Origin: a bacterium
GTDB lineage: Bacteria; Lindowbacteria; 2-12-FULL-62-27
Assembly (NCBI GenBank): GCA_016202645.1
Contig: JACQOF010000099.1
Location: forward strand, 1-62,942
DNA: 62,942 bases
Direction: 5' to 3'
Shown here in pieces: positions 33,154 to 44,544 of the stretch (its first letter is position 1; each line of letters begins with the position of its first letter). The notes under the pieces were generated by a model. That model had not been told where the DNA came from. It made no database searches and saw only the letters and a program-made list of their open reading frames with translations. The translations under genes were made by a program, and so were the position numbers.

Positions 33154-34343
33154 TGGGGCCGCTCTCAGGCGTCCGCGTGCTGGACCTGACCAAGGTTCTG
33201 GCCGGCCCCTTTGCGACGCAGACCTTCGGAGATTTTGGCGCGGATGTCATCAAGATCGAGCGGCCAGTCGACGGCGACGACACGCGGGCGTTCGGGCCGC
33301 CGTTTGTGGAAGGCGAGAGCACTTATTTTTTGTCGATCAACCGCGGCAAGCGAAGCCTGGCGCTCAATCTCAAGTCCGCCGGCGCGGTGGCGCTCGTGAA
33401 AAAAATTGCGGCGAAGTCGGACGTCCTGATCGAGAATTTCCGGCCGGGCAGCTTGAAAAAAATGGGGCTCGACTACGAAAGCCTTCACGCGGAAATTCCC
33501 CGCCTCATCTACGTCTCCATTTCCGGTTTCGGCGCCACCGGGCCCGACGCCCTCCGGCCCGGATATGATCTGGCGGTGCAGGGCCTGTCCGGGATGATGA
33601 GCATTACCGGATATCCAGGCGGCCCGCCGACCAAAGTCGGCACGTCGATTGCGGACCTCATCGCCGGCCTGTACGCCGTTCAGGGAACGCTCCTGGCGCT
33701 GGTCGCGCGGGAAAAAACCGGCCGCGGACAATTCGTCGACGTGTCAATGCTCGACGGCCAGCTGTCCCTCCTGACGTTTCAGGGACAAAAATATCTCTCG
33801 ACCGGGGCCGTCCCCACGCGTCTCGGCAATCAGCATCCGAGCATCTGCCCGTATGAGACCTTCGCCTCCAGCGACGGCTATTTCAACGTGGCCGTCGGCA
33901 ACGACCGCCTCTGGGAATCCTTTTGCGGGGCGCTCGACCGCGGAGACTTGGCAACGGACCCGCGCTTCAAAACCAATCCGGACCGCGTCAAAAATCATGA
34001 TGCGCTCTTCCCGATTTTGCAGGAACTCTTCAAGACCCGGTCCTCTTCAGAATGGATCGGGCTTCTGGAAAAGGCGGGCGTTCCGGCCGCGCCGATCCTG
34101 ACGGTCGACCAGGCCCTCGGCCAGGCGCAGGTGCGCGCCCGGAACATGCGGATGAAAGTCCCCCACTCGAAACTCCCGGCGCTTGAAATGACCGGCGTGC
34201 CCGTGAAGCTGTCCGACACCCCGGCGGTCGGCCGGCGCGGCCCGCCGGTCCTGGGCGAGCACACCGCGGAGATCCTCGCGGAATTCGGATTGGACGCGGC
34301 AGAGGTCGAAAGCTTGAAACAGGAAGGAGCCTTTTCCCGGTGA
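33153..34343 (+). CDS. Family III CoA transferase (CaiB/BaiF type)
   Basis: A 396-residue family III CoA transferase. It has [46 protein letters not shown], the catalytic-aspartate strand in [14 protein letters not shown] (about residue 195), and the C-terminal [16 protein letters not shown]. Such enzymes swap CoA between acids by a glutamyl/aspartyl-CoA intermediate. Located directly before the methylmalonyl-CoA mutase genes, it probably activates or releases a small carboxylate such as propionate, succinate or mesaconate. The specific acid is not deducible. Confidence 0.93.
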
Positions 34344-35971
34344 AATTCGACGATTGGCGGAAAAAAATCTATGAATCGCTCATCCGAAAAATGCCCGAAC
34401 GCCGGCCGGCATTCCAGACCAGTTCCGGAATCCCGGTTGAGCCGCTCTATTCGCCTGAAAATCCAGCGGCCGAACTGGGATTCCCGGGAGAGTTTCCATA
34501 TACCCGGGGGATTCTGGCCAGCCTTTACCGCGGGAAATTCTGGACCATGCGGCAGTATGCGGGGTTCGGCACCGCCGCCGAGTCGAACGCCCGGTACAAA
34601 TATCTGCTCGCCCAGGGCCAGACAGGCCTGTCGATCGCGTTTGACCTTCCGACCCAGCTCGGGATGGACTCGGACGATGAACTGGCGCGCGGCGAAGTCG
34701 GCAAGGTCGGCGTGGCGATCGACTCGATCGAAGACATGGACCGTCTCCTTGACGGGATTCCGCTCGACCGCGTGTCGATTTCGATGACGATCAACGCGCC
34801 CGCCGCCATCCTCTGGGCGCTGGTCATCGCCGTCGCCAAACGCCGCAAGGTTCCCCTGGCCAAACTTCAGGGGACGATTCAAAACGATGTGCTCAAGGAA
34901 TACATCGCGCGCGGCACCTATATTTTTCCGCCGCGGCCGTCCCTTCGCGTTGTGACCGACATTTTCGAATACGGCGGGCGCGCCGTGCCCAACTGGAATA
35001 CGATATCCATTTCCGGGTATCACATCCGGGAGGCCGGCGCGACCGCGGCGCAGGAGCTGGGCCTCACGTTTGCAAACGCCGTCTGTTATGTCGAGTCGGC
35101 GGTCGGGCGGGGCCTCGACCCGGACGATTTTCTGCCGCGGGTATCCTTCTTCTGGAACGCTCACAACCAGTTTTTCGAGGAAATCGCGAAATTCCGCGCG
35201 GCACGCCGGATCTGGGCGAAACTCTCCCGGGACCGGTTCAAGGCCAAAAACCCGAGGTCCTGGATGCACCGGTTTCACACGCAGACCGGCGGGTCGACCC
35301 TCACGGCCGAACAGCCCCTCAACAACGTCGCGCGCACCACGGTCCAGGCCCTCGCCGCGGTACTCGGCGGAACTCAGTCCCTCCATACCAACAGTTACGA
35401 CGAAGCCCTCGGCCTTCCGACCGAAACCGCCGCGACGGTGGCGCTCCGGACCCAGCAGATCCTCGCGCACGAAACCAAAGCCGGCGATACAGTGGACCCC
35501 ATGGGCGGTTCTTATTATATTGAAAGCCTGACCGCCCGGCTCGAGGAGGATGCGATGAGCATCATCCGGAAGATCGACAAGATGGGCGGCGCGGCCGCCG
35601 CGATCGAGGCGGGGTATCCCCAGCGGGAGATCCAGAAGAGCGCGTACGCCGCGCAGGTGGCGCTTGAGAAAAAGGAGGAGATCGTGGTCGGCGTGAATGA
35701 ATTCAGGGCGCGGGAAACGGCCGCGGTCCCGGTCATGAAAATCGACGAGCGCCCGGAGCGCGATCAGATCCGGCGGATCAGGGCGTTTCGGAAAAAGCGC
35801 AAGGCCGCCGCCGCGCGGGCGACCTGCGAGCGGCTCACCCGGGCGGCCGAGTCCGGCGAAAATCTGATGCCCTTCATCGTCGCCGCGGTCGAGGCCGGCG
35901 CGACGGTCGGCGAGACAACCCTGGCGCTGAAAAAAGTATTCGGGGAGGCGAGACATGAACGCACTCTTTAG
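34340..35971 (+). CDS. Methylmalonyl-CoA mutase, large (catalytic) subunit
   Basis: A 543-residue mutase domain without the C-terminal B12 domain (the two-subunit form). It rearranges methylmalonyl-CoA and succinyl-CoA using adenosylcobalamin. Motifs are [115 protein letters not shown] and MGGSYY. Archaea and many anaerobes use this split form. Overlap with the CoA transferase (ATGA) and with the lipoprotein gene suggests one operon. The substrate could be another acyl-CoA of the family (isobutyryl or ethylmalonyl), but the Tyr-rich N-terminal motif fits methylmalonyl. Confidence 0.95.
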
Positions 35972-36458
35972 ACTCGTTGCCGTCGTCCTGTGCCTGGCCG
36001 TTTCCGGGTGCGATCTCATCAACAACAAATGGATCCGGGTGCACCGGGACAATCCCAAAGAACGGGAAGGAACTCCGAAAAAAATGCGGCCGCCGAATTT
36101 CCGGGGACCCGTGGAACGGGTCGAGAAATTTTTCAGTTCGTACGGGCGGAAGAGCTGGGATGATCTGGAATCCTCCCTGACGCGCCGGTCCGACCTCCGG
36201 TACCTCCAGGCGGCGGTGCAGGCGGACTTCGAGAAATATGACGCCATCCGCCCGAAAGTCACCGCTTCTGACGCGGACTTCAACGCCGCGAGAGACCGCG
36301 CGCGGGTTGCGGTCGAATTTGAGATCGAAAAAATCGAAAAGACCACCGGCCGGCTCTACGTCACCCGCGGGAAAGGCACGTTCGTGCTGGCGGACGAGCG
36401 CGGCTGGGACGTCACCGGCTACGTCGGCGACCCCTTCTGGGACAAAACCGGGCCATGA
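35955..36458 (+). CDS. Small lipoprotein inserted in the mutase operon
   Basis: A 167-residue lipoprotein: N-terminal signal ending LAVSGC (Cys17) followed by [22 protein letters not shown], then a domain with [33 protein letters not shown] and a C-terminal [22 protein letters not shown]. The last part resembles the end of NTF2-like lipoprotein domains (compare 11005 and 60843). Its start lies 17 nt inside the mutase large-subunit gene and it ends just before the B12-subunit gene. No link to cobalamin metabolism is evident; I consider its position unusual. Confidence 0.8.
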
Positions 36459-36853
36459 CCGCGCCGGCACGAGTCCTCATCGCGAAGGTCGGCCTCGACG
36501 GGCACGACCGTGGCGCCAAAGTCGTCGCGATGGGCCTGAGGGACGCGGGATTCGAAGTCATCTACACCGGCATCCGCCAGCGCGCGGCGGACGTGGTCCG
36601 CGCCTGCATCGAAGAAGACGTGGGCGCCCTGGGCCTCTCGTCGCTGTCCGGCGGCCACATGGCGAATTTCGCGGATGTCGTGAAAGAATTGAAAAAACAA
36701 AAGGTCCTCAGCCGCATCCATCTCTTCGCCGGCGGCGTCATCCCCCCGGCCGACCAGCTGAAACTCCGCAAACTGGGCTTCTTCGCCGTCTACCCCCCCG
36801 GCACCTCTCTCCAAACCATCGTCGCCGATCTCACCTCCCGGTTGAAGAAGTGA
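36455..36853 (+). CDS. Methylmalonyl-CoA mutase, small (cobalamin-binding) subunit
   Basis: A 132-residue stand-alone B12-binding domain. KVGLDGHDRGAKVVAMGLRDAGFEVIYTG contains the DxHxxG motif whose histidine ligates cobalt; SLSGGHM and FAGGVIPPAD complete the fold. It partners with the large subunit 500 nt upstream, from which it is separated by a lipoprotein gene. It overlaps the next gene by a GTGA junction. Confidence 0.96.
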   Translation: MTAPARVLIAKVGLDGHDRGAKVVAMGLRDAGFEVIYTGIRQRAADVVRACIEEDVGALGLSSLSGGHMANFADVVKELKKQKVLSRIHLFAGGVIPPADQLKLRKLGFFAVYPPGTSLQTIVADLTSRLKK

Positions 36854-38088
36854 AGAAAAAACCGGAGGGGCATTCCGCGACTGGCCGGCTGGCGCGGCTG
36901 TTGACGTTGATTGACAATGGGGATGATCGGGGAATGGAGGCTTTGGCGGGCCGGAAAGTGACACGCCTGCCGTACATTCTCGGGATCACCGGGGCGGCGG
37001 GGGTTGGGAAGAGCCGGTTGCTCAGCAGAATTCTGGAAACCAAGGCCGGGAAGGTTGGAGTGCTCGCGGTGGATCCGACGCATCCTGGGAGCGGCGGAGC
37101 GCTGCTGGGAGACCGTGTGCGGATGCCGCGACTGCCGGCCGGAGTTTTTTTCCGGAGCGTCGCCACTCGCGGCGGGGCTGGCGGGCTGTCCGACAAGCTG
37201 CTCGACATGGCGACCGCCATGAAAGGGTTCGGGATGGAAGACGTCGTGATCGAGACCATCGGGATCGGGCAGGACGAGCTGGCGGTGCGGCAGGCCGCGG
37301 ATACCGTGGTCGTCGTCGAGGCGCCCGGACTCGGGGATGAGGTCCAGGCGATGAAATCAAGTCCAATCTCGATTGCGGACATTGTCGTCGTCAACAAATG
37401 CGATCTTCCCGGAGCCGCCGCGTCAGCGGCCGTCATCGCCGAAACCACCGGCGTGAAACCAATTCTGACCTCGGCGCTGGACGGAGACGGCATCCCGGAA
37501 CTGCGGACGCGGCTGGCGGCGGCCCGGAAAGCGGCACTGAAGCCGGAGACAAAACGCGCCGCGGACGCGCGCAAGTTCGCCTGGCGGATGCGGTCGGCTC
37601 TATCGGGGAAATGGGCCAAACGGTTCGCGGACGAATTGCCTGACCTGCCCGCGGGCGCGCCTCACCAGGTCTACGCGGGTCTTCAGCGCCTGACTGCCTG
37701 TCTTCCGGATCACGTCGCGATCGCCGTGCCGGATTTGGACGCCGCGATCCGGCAGTATGAGGCGCTCGGCTTTTTTCTGGAACGGCGCGAGCGATTCATC
37801 CCGGAAAAAGTCGATACCGCGTTTTTCAACGTTGCGGGGTTTCACATCGAGCTTTTGCATCCCACCGCGCCGGACAGCCCCGTCGCGAAATTCATCGCCG
37901 AGCGCGGCGGCGGCCTCCATCACATCGCATTTTCGGTGCCGGACGCGAAAGCGGCGGCGGCGGACTTTCGCCGGCGCGGCATTGAGACCCTGGGCGCCGT
38001 CCGGCCGGGAACGCGGGGCAAACAGATCCTGTTTCTTCATCCGAAATCCGCCGCCCGCGTTCTGCTTGAATTCTGCGCCTGCCGATGA
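36850..38088 (+). CDS. MeaB/ArgK G-protein fused to methylmalonyl-CoA epimerase
   Basis: A 412-residue fusion. Residues 1 to about 280 are a MeaB-type GTPase that loads and protects the mutase cofactor: P-loop GITGAAGVGKS (45-55), VLAVDPTHPGSGGALLGDRVRM, VIETIGIGQDELAV, and a guanine motif NKCD instead of NKAD. Residues about 287-412 are a glyoxalase-fold epimerase: DHVAIAVPDL, GGGLHHIAFSV and LLEFC provide the expected metal ligands. The two enzymes work with the same substrate and cofactor. Start is GTG 36850, overlapping the previous stop. The reading frame is continuous through both domains with no internal start of comparable quality. Confidence 0.93.
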   Translation: MKKKPEGHSATGRLARLLTLIDNGDDRGMEALAGRKVTRLPYILGITGAAGVGKSRLLSRILETKAGKVGVLAVDPTHPGSGGALLGDRVRMPRLPAGVFFRSVATRGGAGGLSDKLLDMATAMKGFGMEDVVIETIGIGQDELAVRQAADTVVVVEAPGLGDEVQAMKSSPISIADIVVVNKCDLPGAAASAAVIAETTGVKPILTSALDGDGIPELRTRLAAARKAALKPETKRAADARKFAWRMRSALSGKWAKRFADELPDLPAGAPHQVYAGLQRLTACLPDHVAIAVPDLDAAIRQYEALGFFLERRERFIPEKVDTAFFNVAGFHIELLHPTAPDSPVAKFIAERGGGLHHIAFSVPDAKAAAADFRRRGIETLGAVRPGTRGKQILFLHPKSAARVLLEFCACR

Positions 38089-40375: not shown

Positions 40376-40404
40376 TTGAAGCGCCTCCCCGGGGAGGCTA
40401 CACT
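40376..40404 (+). promoter_or_regulatory. Candidate promoter with a perfect 16-bp palindrome in its spacer
   Basis: TTGAAG (40376-40381) and TACACT (40399-40404) are 17 bp apart. The spacer contains GCCTCCCCGGGGAGGC (40383-40398), a perfect palindrome. It lies just upstream of the aldo/keto reductase-heme-IspH gene run. A dimeric regulator bound there would sit directly on the promoter. Confidence 0.6.
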
Positions 40405-40421
40405 GCAGGCTGAATAAGGGG

Positions 40422-40456
40422 GCCTTCAGCTTTCAGCCCTCAGCTATCAGCCGTCA
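40422..40456. repeat. CAGCCCT heptamer repeat, copy 2
   Basis: CTTCAGCTTTCAGCCCTCAG followed by CTATCAGCCG, related to 25966-25997; it occupies the transcript leader of the operon starting at 40473. Confidence 0.8.
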
Positions 40457-40472
40457 AAAGGAGCGGACACGC

Positions 40473-41537
40473 ATGCGATACCGGTTTTTGAGCGATGGGC
40501 GGACGGAGGTTTCGGAAGTCGGGTTTGGGGTCTGGTCGGTGGCGACCACATGGTGGGGCGTCAAGGATCCCCAGGAAGGCATTCGGCTTCTGCGGGAGGC
40601 CCACGCCGCCGGGGTCACGTTTTTCGACACGGCCGACATCTACGGCAACGGTTTGGGCGAGACGATTCTCGCTGACGCCTTCTGGAAGGCCGGCATGCCG
40701 CGCGACCGGCTCGTGGTGGCAACCAAGTTCGGCTATGACATCTACACGCACGGGGCCGAGCGATCGGGTCATGGCGAACTGCCGCAGGATTTTTCGCCGG
40801 CCTTCATCCGCCATGCCTGCGAGGAAAGTCTCCGGCGGCTGGGCACCGATTACATCGACATCTACCAGCTTCACAATCCCCGCATGGAATCGATCCGAAG
40901 CGATGATGTTCTCGAAGCGCTGACCAAGCTCAAGGCCCAGGGCAAAATCCGCCTGGGCGGCGCGGCGTTGGGGCCGGACATCGGCTGGCGCGACGAGGGA
41001 TTCGAGTCGCTGGATCGGGAGGGTGTTGACGCCATTCAGATCATTTACAGCCTTCTGGAGCAGGATCCCTCCTCCGCGTTCTTTCCGATCGCCGAACAAA
41101 AAAACCGGAACCTCATCGTTCGGGTGCCGCACGCCTCGGGACTGCTGGACCGGAGTTATTCTCCGAAGAAACATTTTGACAAGTCCGACCACCGCAGTCA
41201 CCGCAAGGAAAAATGGATGGAGGCGGGTATGGGCGCGGTCCAGAAACTCGAGTTTCTCGAAACGTCGGCGCCGCTTCCCCGAAGCCTGGCCCAGGCAGCC
41301 ATCCAATTTTGTCTGGCGCAGTCTTCGGTAAAAACCGTCCTCCCGAATTTCACGCGAACCGACCAGATCCGGGAATTCTGCGCCGCGTCTGATTTGCCGG
41401 CCCTGCCGCCGGACGCCCTGATCCAGATTCAAAAACTCTGGAATGACGGCATGCGCGAGGATCTCGCACAGCCGTTTTCCGACAGCCGGACGAAACCGAC
41501 TCCGTCAGCGCCGGCGGCCACCGGACGAGCCGGATAG
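40473..41537 (+). CDS. Aldo/keto reductase
   Basis: A 354-residue NADPH-dependent aldo/keto reductase with a TIM barrel. TFFDTADIYGNGLGE carries the catalytic Asp and Tyr, LVVATKFGYD the Lys, and IDIYQLHNP the His. The C-terminal region past residue 300 is extended and proline-rich. Its substrate is unknown. It is the first gene of the run 40473-47292 and has AAAAGGAGCGG before its ATG. The other genes nearby concern tetrapyrrole and isoprenoid metabolism, so a role in an isoprenoid or quinone/heme path is possible but unproven. Confidence 0.93.
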   Translation: MRYRFLSDGRTEVSEVGFGVWSVATTWWGVKDPQEGIRLLREAHAAGVTFFDTADIYGNGLGETILADAFWKAGMPRDRLVVATKFGYDIYTHGAERSGHGELPQDFSPAFIRHACEESLRRLGTDYIDIYQLHNPRMESIRSDDVLEALTKLKAQGKIRLGGAALGPDIGWRDEGFESLDREGVDAIQIIYSLLEQDPSSAFFPIAEQKNRNLIVRVPHASGLLDRSYSPKKHFDKSDHRSHRKEKWMEAGMGAVQKLEFLETSAPLPRSLAQAAIQFCLAQSSVKTVLPNFTRTDQIREFCAASDLPALPPDALIQIQKLWNDGMREDLAQPFSDSRTKPTPSAPAATGRAG

Positions 41538-41541
41538 CTCC

Positions 41542-42696
41542 ATGGCCCGAGCCGCTTCCCCGCCCGATCCGTTGATGGCAGATCCGGTCAACCGGACCCT
41601 GCTCAAAGTCGGCGAGGCGGGTCTTGCCGGATTGCCGTTTACGCACCGTCCCTGGGACCAGTTGGCGGACGCGGCCCGGGAAAAATTTCACCTGGAAAAA
41701 ATCTCCGGCGATGACGTCCGGATCCGAGTCCGAGACCTGACGCGGGCCGGCCGTGTCCGCTATTCCCGCTGGATATTGGAGACCGGAAAACTCGTCGGCA
41801 AAACCAACACGGCCCTGGTGGCGCTGGAGACGGACAGTTCCAAGGTCGACGCGGCCGCGGCGGTCCTCACGTCGCATCCCGGCGTCAGCCACTGCTATCT
41901 CCGGGGAGACAAAGGCTACAACGTCTGGTTCACGCTGGCGGTTCCACCGGCGTGGTCCCTGGAAAAAACCGCTGATCTTCTGCGGGACCTGTCGGGCGCG
42001 TCCGCCGTCCGGGTGCTCTTTGCGGAACGAATGCTGAAAATCCAGGTGGCGCACACGGCGGCGGCCGATCGCCAGGCCGGCGAAAAAGCGGCCGCGCCGA
42101 AAGTGGTCCAGCCGGACGCCGCGGGGTTCGTTCTCTCGGATGAGGAGGAGCGGTGTCTGGAGATTCTGTGGGAGCCGATAGACTTTTCAGAGGGATCCGC
42201 CGAAGCGGACTCCGACGAGCCTTACGCGGTCCGTTCCCGGAAGGCGGGAATTTCGCCGGATCGGTTCGCGGAGTGTCTGAGAGGCCTTCAGCAAAAAGAA
42301 ATCCTCCGGCGGTTTTCGGTCATTCTCAACCACCGGAGCGCCGGCATTTCCGCCAACGGCATGTGCCAGTGGGACGTGCCGGACGAGGACCTGGACCGCC
42401 TTGCCGCGGTCATCCCGCAATTCGCCGCCGTGACCCACGCGTACATCCGCACCCGCTACGAGGACATTCCCTACCGGTTATACGCGATGCTCCATGGCCC
42501 GAGTTTCGATTGGATCAAGGACCGCAAGACCGCCATCGACGTCGCCGCGGAAAAAGAAGGGGTCCGGATCCGCAATTCCCGGGTGCTGATTTCAGGCCGC
42601 GAACTCGGCATGAAACCGCCCTGCCCGGTTCCGCTTGTGCATCGCGCGTGGTTCGAAAAAAACGATCCGATGGGAGCGTGCCGCCGTGCCCCTTGA
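41542..42696 (+). CDS. Fused siroheme decarboxylase (AhbA-AhbB / NirDL-like)
   Basis: A 384-residue protein made of two Lrp/AsnC-like halves, as in NirDL. The first half has RVRYSRWIL...TALVALE and PGVSHCYLRGDKGYNVWFTL. The second has RFSVILNHRSAGISANGMCQWDV (the HRxxGFxANAM substrate-binding region of AhbB, here with ILE-SER changes) and VTHAYIRTRYEDIPYRLYAMLHG. The family decarboxylates siroheme to didecarboxysiroheme on the siroheme route to heme or heme d1. I chose ATG 41542; ATG 41575 is also possible. It follows the aldo/keto reductase by four bases and precedes a HemQ/Cld-like gene. Confidence 0.85.
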   Translation: MARAASPPDPLMADPVNRTLLKVGEAGLAGLPFTHRPWDQLADAAREKFHLEKISGDDVRIRVRDLTRAGRVRYSRWILETGKLVGKTNTALVALETDSSKVDAAAAVLTSHPGVSHCYLRGDKGYNVWFTLAVPPAWSLEKTADLLRDLSGASAVRVLFAERMLKIQVAHTAAADRQAGEKAAAPKVVQPDAAGFVLSDEEERCLEILWEPIDFSEGSAEADSDEPYAVRSRKAGISPDRFAECLRGLQQKEILRRFSVILNHRSAGISANGMCQWDVPDEDLDRLAAVIPQFAAVTHAYIRTRYEDIPYRLYAMLHGPSFDWIKDRKTAIDVAAEKEGVRIRNSRVLISGRELGMKPPCPVPLVHRAWFEKNDPMGACRRAP

Positions 42697-43399
42697 GGCA
42701 AGTCCGGTCAAGCCGGCAGAAACCCGGCATTTTGTCCGGTACGGATTTTACGCCGTGGAGAACGCCTTCCGGCGCCTGCCGAAATCCCGTCGCGCCGCCG
42801 CCCGGAAATCCTTTTTGAAACTTCTTGAATCCTGGGACAAAAAAATCCAGCTCTATCCCTACTCCACCGCCGGCACCCGGCCCGACGCCGATTTCATGCT
42901 CTGGTCGGTGTCGCCGCGCCTGGCGGACCTGCGCGATCTGGCGCTTGACATACGGCGCTCGGATATCGGCGCCTATCTGACGACGCCTCACGCCTACCTC
43001 GCCATGACCCGCAAATCCATGTACGTCGACCAGCACCGCCATCCGGGCCAGGAGGGCCACAGCCTTCAGATCGAATCGAACGGCTCGAAATTTCTGTTCG
43101 TGTATCCCTTTGTCAAAACCCACGCCTGGTACCAGTGTTCGATGGAGGATCGGCAAAAGATGATGACCGAGCACATCGAGGCCGGGCACCGCTTTCCGTC
43201 CGTCAAAATTCACACGACCTATTCTTACGGTCTGGACGATCAGGAATTCGTGGTGGCCTTCGAGAGCGACCATCCCGGGGATTTCGTGGATCTGGTCATG
43301 GCCCTCCGGACCGGCCGGGCGCGGCCGTACACGGAACGAGACACGCCGATTTTCACGTGCGTCCGGACGCCCCTGGAGAAGCTTGTCGAGGAATTATGA
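42686..43399 (+). CDS. Chlorite dismutase/HemQ-family heme protein
   Basis: A 237-residue protein of the Cld fold. The C-terminal half has FVKTHAWYQCSMEDRQKMMTEHIEAG and HTTYSYGLDDQEFVVAFES, matching coproheme decarboxylases (HemQ) and related Clds: a His after the helix (EH...GH) is the probable proximal ligand. HemQ turns coproheme into heme b. The GTG at 42686 is preceded by GGGAGCG and overlaps the siroheme decarboxylase end. It is placed next to a siroheme-route enzyme, which is unusual. It could alternatively act in Cld-like detoxification or AhbD-like decarboxylation. Confidence 0.85.
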   Translation: MPLEASPVKPAETRHFVRYGFYAVENAFRRLPKSRRAAARKSFLKLLESWDKKIQLYPYSTAGTRPDADFMLWSVSPRLADLRDLALDIRRSDIGAYLTTPHAYLAMTRKSMYVDQHRHPGQEGHSLQIESNGSKFLFVYPFVKTHAWYQCSMEDRQKMMTEHIEAGHRFPSVKIHTTYSYGLDDQEFVVAFESDHPGDFVDLVMALRTGRARPYTERDTPIFTCVRTPLEKLVEEL

Positions 43400-44544
43400 A
43401 GACGGAACTTCTTCAGAAGGACATCCTGAAAAAGGCGACGCGGCGGGAATGGCTGGAGGAGTCCGGCGTGCGGATGGGGTTTCATGAAATTCACAAGGGC
43501 GATCTCACGCTGCGCCTCGCCGGGGTCTGGGGATTTTGCTACGGCGTGCTGTACGCGATCGAAGCCGTCGACCGCGCCCTGAACGATTTCAAGGACCGAA
43601 AGATATATGTCCTCGGGGACCTCATCCACAACCCGCACGTCAACGAACAGCTCCAGAAACGCGGCGCGAGGTTTATCAATCTCGAGGAAATTGAAACCGT
43701 CGAGCCCGACGCCGTCGTGGTCGTGCCGGCGTTCGGCACCCGCCGGGACATTTTCAAAAAAATCCGGGAGCGACGCCTGCTCCAGATCGACACCACCTGC
43801 CCGGAAGTCCGGACGGTGGAGGAGGAAGTCACGCGGTTTCAGGAGGAGGGGTTCACGGCGGTCATTCACGGAAAATTCGAGCACCAGGAATCGATCGCCA
43901 CAAGTTCCTTTGCGGAGCGGTACCTGATCATCCGCAACAAGGATGAGGCCGGGTGGATCTGCGAGTTCATTCGCGGCCGGAAATCCCCGGCGGACTTCAA
44001 GACCCGGTTCTCCCGGGCCGCGTCAAATGGATTCGACCCCGAAGTTGATCTCAAACGCGTTGGGATGGCCAACCAGACAACGATGCTGATGAACGAGTCT
44101 CTGGAAATTTTCGATATGTTCCGCCAGGCGATCCTTGCCCGGGACGGCCACACGGAAAACTTCCGGGCGATGAAGACCATCTGTTCCGCCACCCAGGACC
44201 GGCAGGACGCGGTCGCCCGGCTGTCGAAGGACGGCGGGATCGACCTTCTGATCGACGTCGGCGGTCACGCCAGTTCCAACACCCGGAACCTCGCCATTAC
44301 GGCCCACCAGAACGGGGGCATGCCCGTCTATCACATCGAAAGCGCGGCCGCCTTCAGCCGCAGCGCCATGACCTTCCTTCCGATTGATTCATCCACGGTG
44401 GATACGCGGTACGGTTGGCTTCCGGAGGGGCCCGTTTCGGTCGGCCTCACGGCGGGCGCATCGACCCCGCACTCGGAACTGGAGCTGGTCATTCAAAAAC
44501 TTCTCGGATTTTACGCCGTTTCGTCCCCCTCCCTCGTTGGCTGA
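43396..44544 (+). CDS. ispH: 4-hydroxy-3-methylbut-2-enyl diphosphate reductase (IspH/LytB), long form
   Basis: A 382-residue [4Fe-4S] enzyme making IPP and DMAPP, the last step of the MEP isoprenoid pathway. Conserved cysteines are in GVWGFCYGV (Cys48), TTCPEV and TICSATQDRQ. IHGKFEHQES, NQTTML and the late GVTAGASTP (here GLTAGASTP) fit. It is about 65 residues longer than the E. coli enzyme and resembles the plant/cyanobacterial long form. ATGA overlap with the HemQ-like gene argues for co-expression. Confidence 0.96.
   Translation: MKTELLQKDILKKATRREWLEESGVRMGFHEIHKGDLTLRLAGVWGFCYGVLYAIEAVDRALNDFKDRKIYVLGDLIHNPHVNEQLQKRGARFINLEEIETVEPDAVVVVPAFGTRRDIFKKIRERRLLQIDTTCPEVRTVEEEVTRFQEEGFTAVIHGKFEHQESIATSSFAERYLIIRNKDEAGWICEFIRGRKSPADFKTRFSRAASNGFDPEVDLKRVGMANQTTMLMNESLEIFDMFRQAILARDGHTENFRAMKTICSATQDRQDAVARLSKDGGIDLLIDVGGHASSNTRNLAITAHQNGGMPVYHIESAAAFSRSAMTFLPIDSSTVDTRYGWLPEGPVSVGLTAGASTPHSELELVIQKLLGFYAVSSPSLVG

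Follow-up and report, generated by a model that had tools for sequence, protein, structure and literature searches.

A bacterial operon predicted to join siroheme decarboxylation to a ChdC-type finish of heme b synthesis, with an aldo/keto reductase as candidate partner

A four-gene operon of an uncultured bacterium of the Lindowbacteria very probably provides some of the enzymes of a hybrid heme b pathway, one that would start from siroheme, finish with a ChdC-type coproheme decarboxylase and include an aldo/keto reductase (AKR) as a dedicated partner. The operon lies in a window of 62,942 nucleotides, the whole stretch of DNA analysed, which is one contig of a metagenome-assembled genome (MAG) of Lindowbacteria type (Candidatus Lindowbacteria; 2.9 Mb, 82% complete). 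Our reading builds on the genes themselves, their order and conservation, their active-site residues and the absence of a ferrochelatase; from these we infer the reactions and the part played by the AKR. In the proposed route, siroheme would be supplied by a sirC-ccsB-hemA-hemC-cobA/hemD operon located elsewhere in the genome, and the fused decarboxylase AhbAB would convert it into 12,18-didecarboxysiroheme. AhbC, also encoded elsewhere, would then remove two acetate chains to yield coproheme, and the Cld-family protein of the operon would turn coproheme into heme b using peroxide and a catalytic tyrosine, in the manner of ChdC. In this variant the AKR would be a dedicated partner that probably acts at the ChdC step or at one beside it, and a radical SAM protein of the TIGR04053 family, encoded next to AhbC, may perform the last step independently of oxygen.

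The four genes are tightly packed on the plus strand (window positions 40473-44544; Table 1), and each of the gene names is backed by both Pfam and NCBIfam matches. Only 4 nt separate the stop codon of the AKR gene from the start of ahbAB, the Cld-family gene begins inside the end of ahbAB with an overlap of 11 nt, and the ATG of ispH lies within the end of the Cld-family gene (overlap of 4 nt). A preliminary description of this DNA had proposed a fused siroheme decarboxylase next to a HemQ/Cld-like protein, translationally linked in one operon with an aldo/keto reductase and IspH; the AhbA/AhbB, PF17805 and PF06778 matches bear out the first point, and the gap and overlaps the second. The identical gene order is found in both relatives of the same family, three genera being represented in all, with different flanking genes: for this reason we consider that the operon results neither from chance nor from an assembly artefact. 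Identity between the window and the two relatives, whose AhbAB loci belong to Candidatus Lindowbacteria nzgw232 and RIFCSPLOWO2_12_FULL_62_27, is 73-79% for AKR and AhbAB, 57-61% for the Cld-family protein and 71-72% for IspH. A contig search with patterns drawn from the AhbAB alignment, which are very specific, returned matches from Lindowbacteria only. IspH is a member of the operon, and this membership does not imply a role in heme synthesis. Directly before the AKR gene, at 40380-40470, stand short direct repeats (ctttcagccctcagctatcagc), which have the look of a small repeat of mobile type close to where the operon starts.

Table 1. Genes and active-site features of the operon, in window coordinates
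Feature	Position	Strand	Basis
Aldo/keto reductase (heme-linked AKR), 354 aa	40473..41537	+	PF00248 5.4e-49; neighbour of AhbAB/Cld in both relatives as well
Fused siroheme decarboxylase AhbAB, 384 aa	41542..42696	+	NF040707, NF040708, PF17805; solved homologs 4ch7 (NirD-like), 4czd (AhbA/AhbB)
HXYXR motif, N-terminal half, H117-C-Y-L-R121	41890..41904	+	Translation; motif per PMC4145669
HXYXR motif, C-terminal half, H299-A-Y-I-R303	42436..42450	+	Translation; motif per PMC4145669
Cld-family protein, ChdC-type coproheme decarboxylase (predicted), GTG start, 237 aa	42686..43399	+	PF06778 7.2e-54; solved matches, residues, tree
Codon of ChdC catalytic Tyr, Y138	43103..43105	+	Alignment of 49 proteins
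Codon of proximal heme-binding His, H161	43172..43174	+	Alignment of 49 proteins
IspH (4-hydroxy-3-methylbut-2-enyl diphosphate reductase), 382 aa	43396..44544	+	PF02401 6.8e-64; TIGR00216 above cut-off; kept in both relatives

The AhbAB protein is composed of two AsnC-like siroheme decarboxylase halves, and PF17805 accordingly matches twice (2.6e-36). The NCBIfam model for AhbB (NF040707) is matched above its cut-off (5.9e-41), and that for AhbA (NF040708, 3.5e-35) slightly below (120.9 versus 140 bits). The HXYXR motif, which lines the active site of AhbA and AhbB and whose AhbB arginine is essential in D. desulfuricans (PMC4145669), is intact in both halves. The protein reads ANGMCQW where its relatives read xNAMxxW and where the solved homologs also have NAM; this departure from the usual motif, noticed in the preliminary description, is real, is fixed in all three Lindowbacteria genomes and is located outside the catalytic motifs. 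Fusion of ahbA and ahbB into a single reading frame is common in archaea (PMC11237513), from which the present case differs by its bacterial host and by ANGM in place of NAM. From these motifs and domain matches, AhbAB is predicted to convert siroheme into didecarboxysiroheme.

The genes expected upstream of this step are in place: the siroheme-synthase dehydrogenase gene (sirC), ccsB, hemA, hemC and cobA/hemD are consecutive on another contig of the same genome, so that siroheme synthesis, for which the preliminary description had pointed to cysG, is represented. Conversely, a family search for the ferrochelatase HemH gave no match in the three Lindowbacteria genomes, the same search being positive in 15 of 38 other genomes. 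HemE was found in neither relative, and its only trace in the window's genome is a contig-end piece of 32 aa, scoring at the cut-off. Given gaps of 18, 6 and 12% in the three MAGs, and assuming independence, the chance that one gene is hidden in all of them is about 0.1%. Because HemH is missing from the three genomes and no credible HemE is present, we rejected a full classical or coproporphyrin route; the complete classical pathway that, according to the preliminary description, would have spoken against its proposal was thus not encountered. For the same reason, no source of coproheme other than siroheme is apparent. Heme-copper oxidases were found in both relatives, which therefore at least need heme; no COX1 was seen in the window's genome, an 82% complete MAG.

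An AhbC-like radical SAM protein is encoded in all three genomes. AhbC is its best or near-best match at 420-437 bits, which is below the curated cut-off of 650 and nearly tied with NirJ1, so that the enzyme named in the preliminary description is present as a homolog that does not reach the score of an assured AhbC. This near tie would also suit a pathway to heme d1, in which the AhbAB and AhbC homologs would have the roles of NirDL and NirJ and heme b would be otherwise made or imported; in two further genomes (G172 and G226) these genes are indeed found next to cytochrome d1 genes. At the Lindowbacteria loci, however, no d1 gene (NirS, NirF or NirN) was recognised near ahbAB or ahbC, the HemH and HemE searches leave no alternative heme b route in sight, and clustering with a ChdC-type gene, as well as with hemA in another phylum, fits heme b; we thus regard a heme d1 function as highly improbable.

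Turning to the Cld-family protein, its residues distinguish between the two main functions of its relatives. Chlorite dismutases require a distal Arg and carry Ile at the position of the catalytic Tyr of coproheme decarboxylases (PMC7611857). When 49 proteins are aligned, the window protein shows Tyr138, the proximal His161 and, in the column of the distal Arg, Ile; all relatives keep the catalytic Tyr, with the one exception of the likely true chlorite dismutase found in G172, where Ile and Arg occupy those columns. Among solved structures, coproheme decarboxylases are the nearest to it in sequence, and in the Cld tree the window protein sits among proteins from genomes having both a ferrochelatase and a ChdC-type protein. 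Structure is less discriminating: the predicted model (pLDDT 81) adopts the family fold, and in a fold search ChdC and chlorite dismutase structures match it about equally, leaving the two functions unseparated. This common fold is what would speak for a chlorite dismutase placed in the operon by chance, an identity that we rejected on account of Tyr in place of Ile and Ile in place of the distal Arg, the very positions at which G172 shows the chlorite dismutase residues, and that we hold to be extremely unlikely. Nor did the Cld-family phylogeny group the protein with chlorite dismutases, the other outcome that the preliminary description had set against itself. By its residues, the protein is a predicted ChdC-type coproheme decarboxylase. 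The designation 'ChdC-type' was chosen because its scores fall below the NCBIfam HemQ equivalog cut-offs (131 versus 235 bits for the actinobacterial model, 72 versus 253 for the other); these models likely do not extend to a new subgroup. In G172 (locus L105 4437-7926), the gene for this likely true chlorite dismutase, whose product has a signal-peptide-like start, adjoins a molybdopterin oxidoreductase gene, which suggests (per)chlorate respiration in that organism.

The Cld-family protein most likely carries out the AhbD step on siroheme-derived coproheme, but it may not be alone in doing so. Directly behind AhbC, all three genomes encode a radical SAM protein of the TIGR04053 family (recognised by NCBIfam in the two relatives and by sequence in the window's genome), which scores above the cut-off of its own family and for which AhbD ranks second among the NCBIfam models (344-348 bits, cut-off 500). 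The AhbD named in the preliminary description is therefore represented by a similar protein that falls short of the AhbD model. One may then ask whether the TIGR04053 protein is the sole heme b synthase, the Cld-family protein serving in peroxide defence, heme sensing or a similar function. Its place behind AhbC, kept also in a family of another phylum, and its AhbD score are in line with such an arrangement, yet the gene that overlaps ahbAB is the Cld-family gene and not TIGR04053, the catalytic Tyr is kept in all relatives but the likely true chlorite dismutase, and Haloferax employs both kinds of last enzyme, one for aerobic and one for anaerobic growth. We consider it unlikely that TIGR04053 is the only heme b synthase. 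Since an AhbD-like TIGR04053 protein is also encoded, the Cld-family protein of the preferred hybrid route may act in addition to an AhbD function instead of substituting for it. Of the two possibilities raised in the preliminary description, replacement of AhbD by the Cld protein or the joining of two routes, the hybrid character gains support from the ChdC residues and the lack of HemH, and the presence of TIGR04053 weakens the idea of a plain replacement. Several points could be held against the hybrid route: AhbC is below cut-off and near NirJ1, the Cld-family protein is below the HemQ cut-offs, the MAGs are incomplete, the lack of HemH comes from a search by protein family, no COX1 was seen in the window's genome, and TIGR04053 could be the real last enzyme. 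At L034 9770-12653 and L035 5873-8750, the TIGR04053 gene next to AhbC is followed by a nitronate-monooxygenase-like gene (PF03060) and, in the window's genome and in G002, by a histidine kinase; involvement in the last step of heme synthesis is possible.

The same combination of genes occurs outside the Lindowbacteria. Of 290 genomes, 43 match the Cld family and 46 AhbAB, with 12 matching both. In one of them (G185), which belongs to another phylum, AKR, Cld, AhbAB and HemA genes stand side by side, and the AKR-Cld-AhbAB order is kept in all five locus-bearing genomes of its family (85 genomes of the phylum searched). A hemA-like gene adjoins AhbAB in the four genomes of this family whose gene list shows it (G185, G295, G296 and G297), and AhbC is accompanied by a neighbouring second radical SAM gene in G295, G296, G297 and G299; in the two genomes compared, the product of this second gene is 56-60% identical to the Lindowbacteria TIGR04053 protein. 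The operon AKR is 41-44% identical to the AKRs of this family. HemH had no match in the family within the 85 genomes searched, whereas in most other families of the phylum HemH is present and AhbAB was not detected. We count this pattern (Cld-AhbAB cluster, AhbC, no HemH) as support for the hybrid route. G185 itself lacks AhbC, which led us to consider that the AKR replaces it; this was rejected, as sister genomes have AhbC, and the missing gene probably reflects incompleteness. Two other genomes (G071 and G212; L101-L104) encode AhbAB and a Gln-type Cld-family protein, with no HemH and no neighbouring AKR gene; AhbC is absent from one genome of their family and gives only a weak match in the other.

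The recurrent presence of the AKR gene was not anticipated in the preliminary description, and it seems to be a real partner of the hybrid route rather than a bystander. Its association takes a second form in three further families (G014, G151 and G289), which encode AKR-Cld fusion proteins of 614-629 aa according to their Pfam architecture (L108 3852-5741, L109 4218-6062 and L110 3731-5584); all three genomes have AhbAB and AhbC and are without HemH. The nearest Cld relatives of the fusions, on the other hand, occur without AKR, and all five of their genomes searched have HemH. Taken by family, an AKR is linked to Cld in five of six families with AhbAB and without HemH, versus none of about 13 families with HemH (Fisher p about 5e-4), neighbourhoods of no less than 1.5 kb in either direction having been inspected for adjacency. 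This comparison leaves out G264, whose AhbAB match is weak, as well as G172 and G226, which have both AhbAB and Cld matches but in which AhbAB goes with cytochrome d1, the Cld of G172 moreover looking like a true chlorite dismutase. In a tree with five E. coli AKRs, a small outside sample, the Cld-adjacent and Cld-fused AKRs group together as one clade (support 100/99), and they share motifs that the E. coli proteins lack: an HN motif, DHRxxR and a GP-containing stretch. Their Cld partners branch in two regions of the Cld tree that lie well apart, so the partnership probably arose more than once, or the AKR switched partner. In G014, the fusion gene comes just behind two genes that by eye resemble cytochrome bd subunits.

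As to the function of the AKR, the alignment shows that the operon protein has all four residues of the usual AKR tetrad (Asp, Tyr, Lys, His) and that the AKR half of the fusions, whose structure prediction was poor (pLDDT 57.5), has lost the usual catalytic Asp and Lys. Because the fused forms have lost these residues, a redox step is no more likely than binding or handover of a tetrapyrrole. We lean, by a small measure, towards the AKR being an unrecognised dedicated component of heme synthesis in bacteria whose ChdC receives siroheme-derived coproheme, that is, a distinct heme-AKR family with a step or substrate-handling role of its own; it probably partners the ChdC step. A more doubtful possibility is that the AKR is an unrelated passenger, recurring beside Cld by coincidence or within an inherited gene block: AKR genes are common, G071 and G212 do without an adjacent one, and the fused AKRs lack the usual catalytic Asp and Lys. 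A passenger would nevertheless have to have remained the neighbour in two phyla despite different gene orders, been fused to Cld in three further families that all have AhbAB and lack HemH, come from one AKR clade as measured against the E. coli proteins, and stayed away from Cld in the families with HemH.

Parts of this scheme have precedents: the hybrid idea is already known from haloarchaea, and a mirror hybrid and fused AhbAB proteins have also been described. Haloferax volcanii, which lacks UroD, CgoX and CpfC, uses PitA for aerobic and AhbD for anaerobic growth (PMC5746218, PMC8305020). It resembles the Lindowbacteria in having AhbAB, AhbC (an AhbC-like protein in the latter), a ChdC-type enzyme and a radical SAM last enzyme (a candidate in the latter), without UroD or ferrochelatase; it differs in being an archaeon whose PitA is a ChdC-ABM fusion with no AKR link, whereas the Lindowbacteria have a bacterial ahbAB and ChdC-type operon and a radical SAM protein that by cut-off is TIGR04053, not AhbD. 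With the coproporphyrin-dependent pathway of Firmicutes and Actinobacteria (HemQ/ChdC), the route would share the last step and its key residues, but no ferrochelatase or HemE was found in the Lindowbacteria genomes and coproheme would derive from siroheme. With the siroheme-dependent Ahb pathway of sulfate reducers and methanogens, it has in common AhbAB, an AhbC-like protein and siroheme as precursor, but it would finish with a ChdC-type enzyme, TIGR04053 being a possible alternative, and its operon includes an AKR. The mirror hybrid described in reviews, a coproporphyrin route ending with AhbD (PMC7242693, PMC10548856), likewise swaps the last enzyme between the two routes, in the opposite direction. 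The bacterial ahbAB-chdC operon and the AKR partner appear to be new, as we found no description of them in the papers searched. The apparent joining of the siroheme route to peroxide-dependent coproheme decarboxylation in a bacterial operon suggests that heme routes are more modular than the textbook three. The AKR, for its part, is a candidate for a component that present-day models of heme synthesis do not include, in lineages where metagenomes are the only source of knowledge on heme metabolism.

Elsewhere in the window, the region 34340-38088 contains a methylmalonyl-CoA mutase split in two genes (34340-35971 and 36455-36853), followed by a single reading frame that combines a MeaB-type GTPase with a glyoxalase-family domain, the latter probably a methylmalonyl-CoA epimerase.
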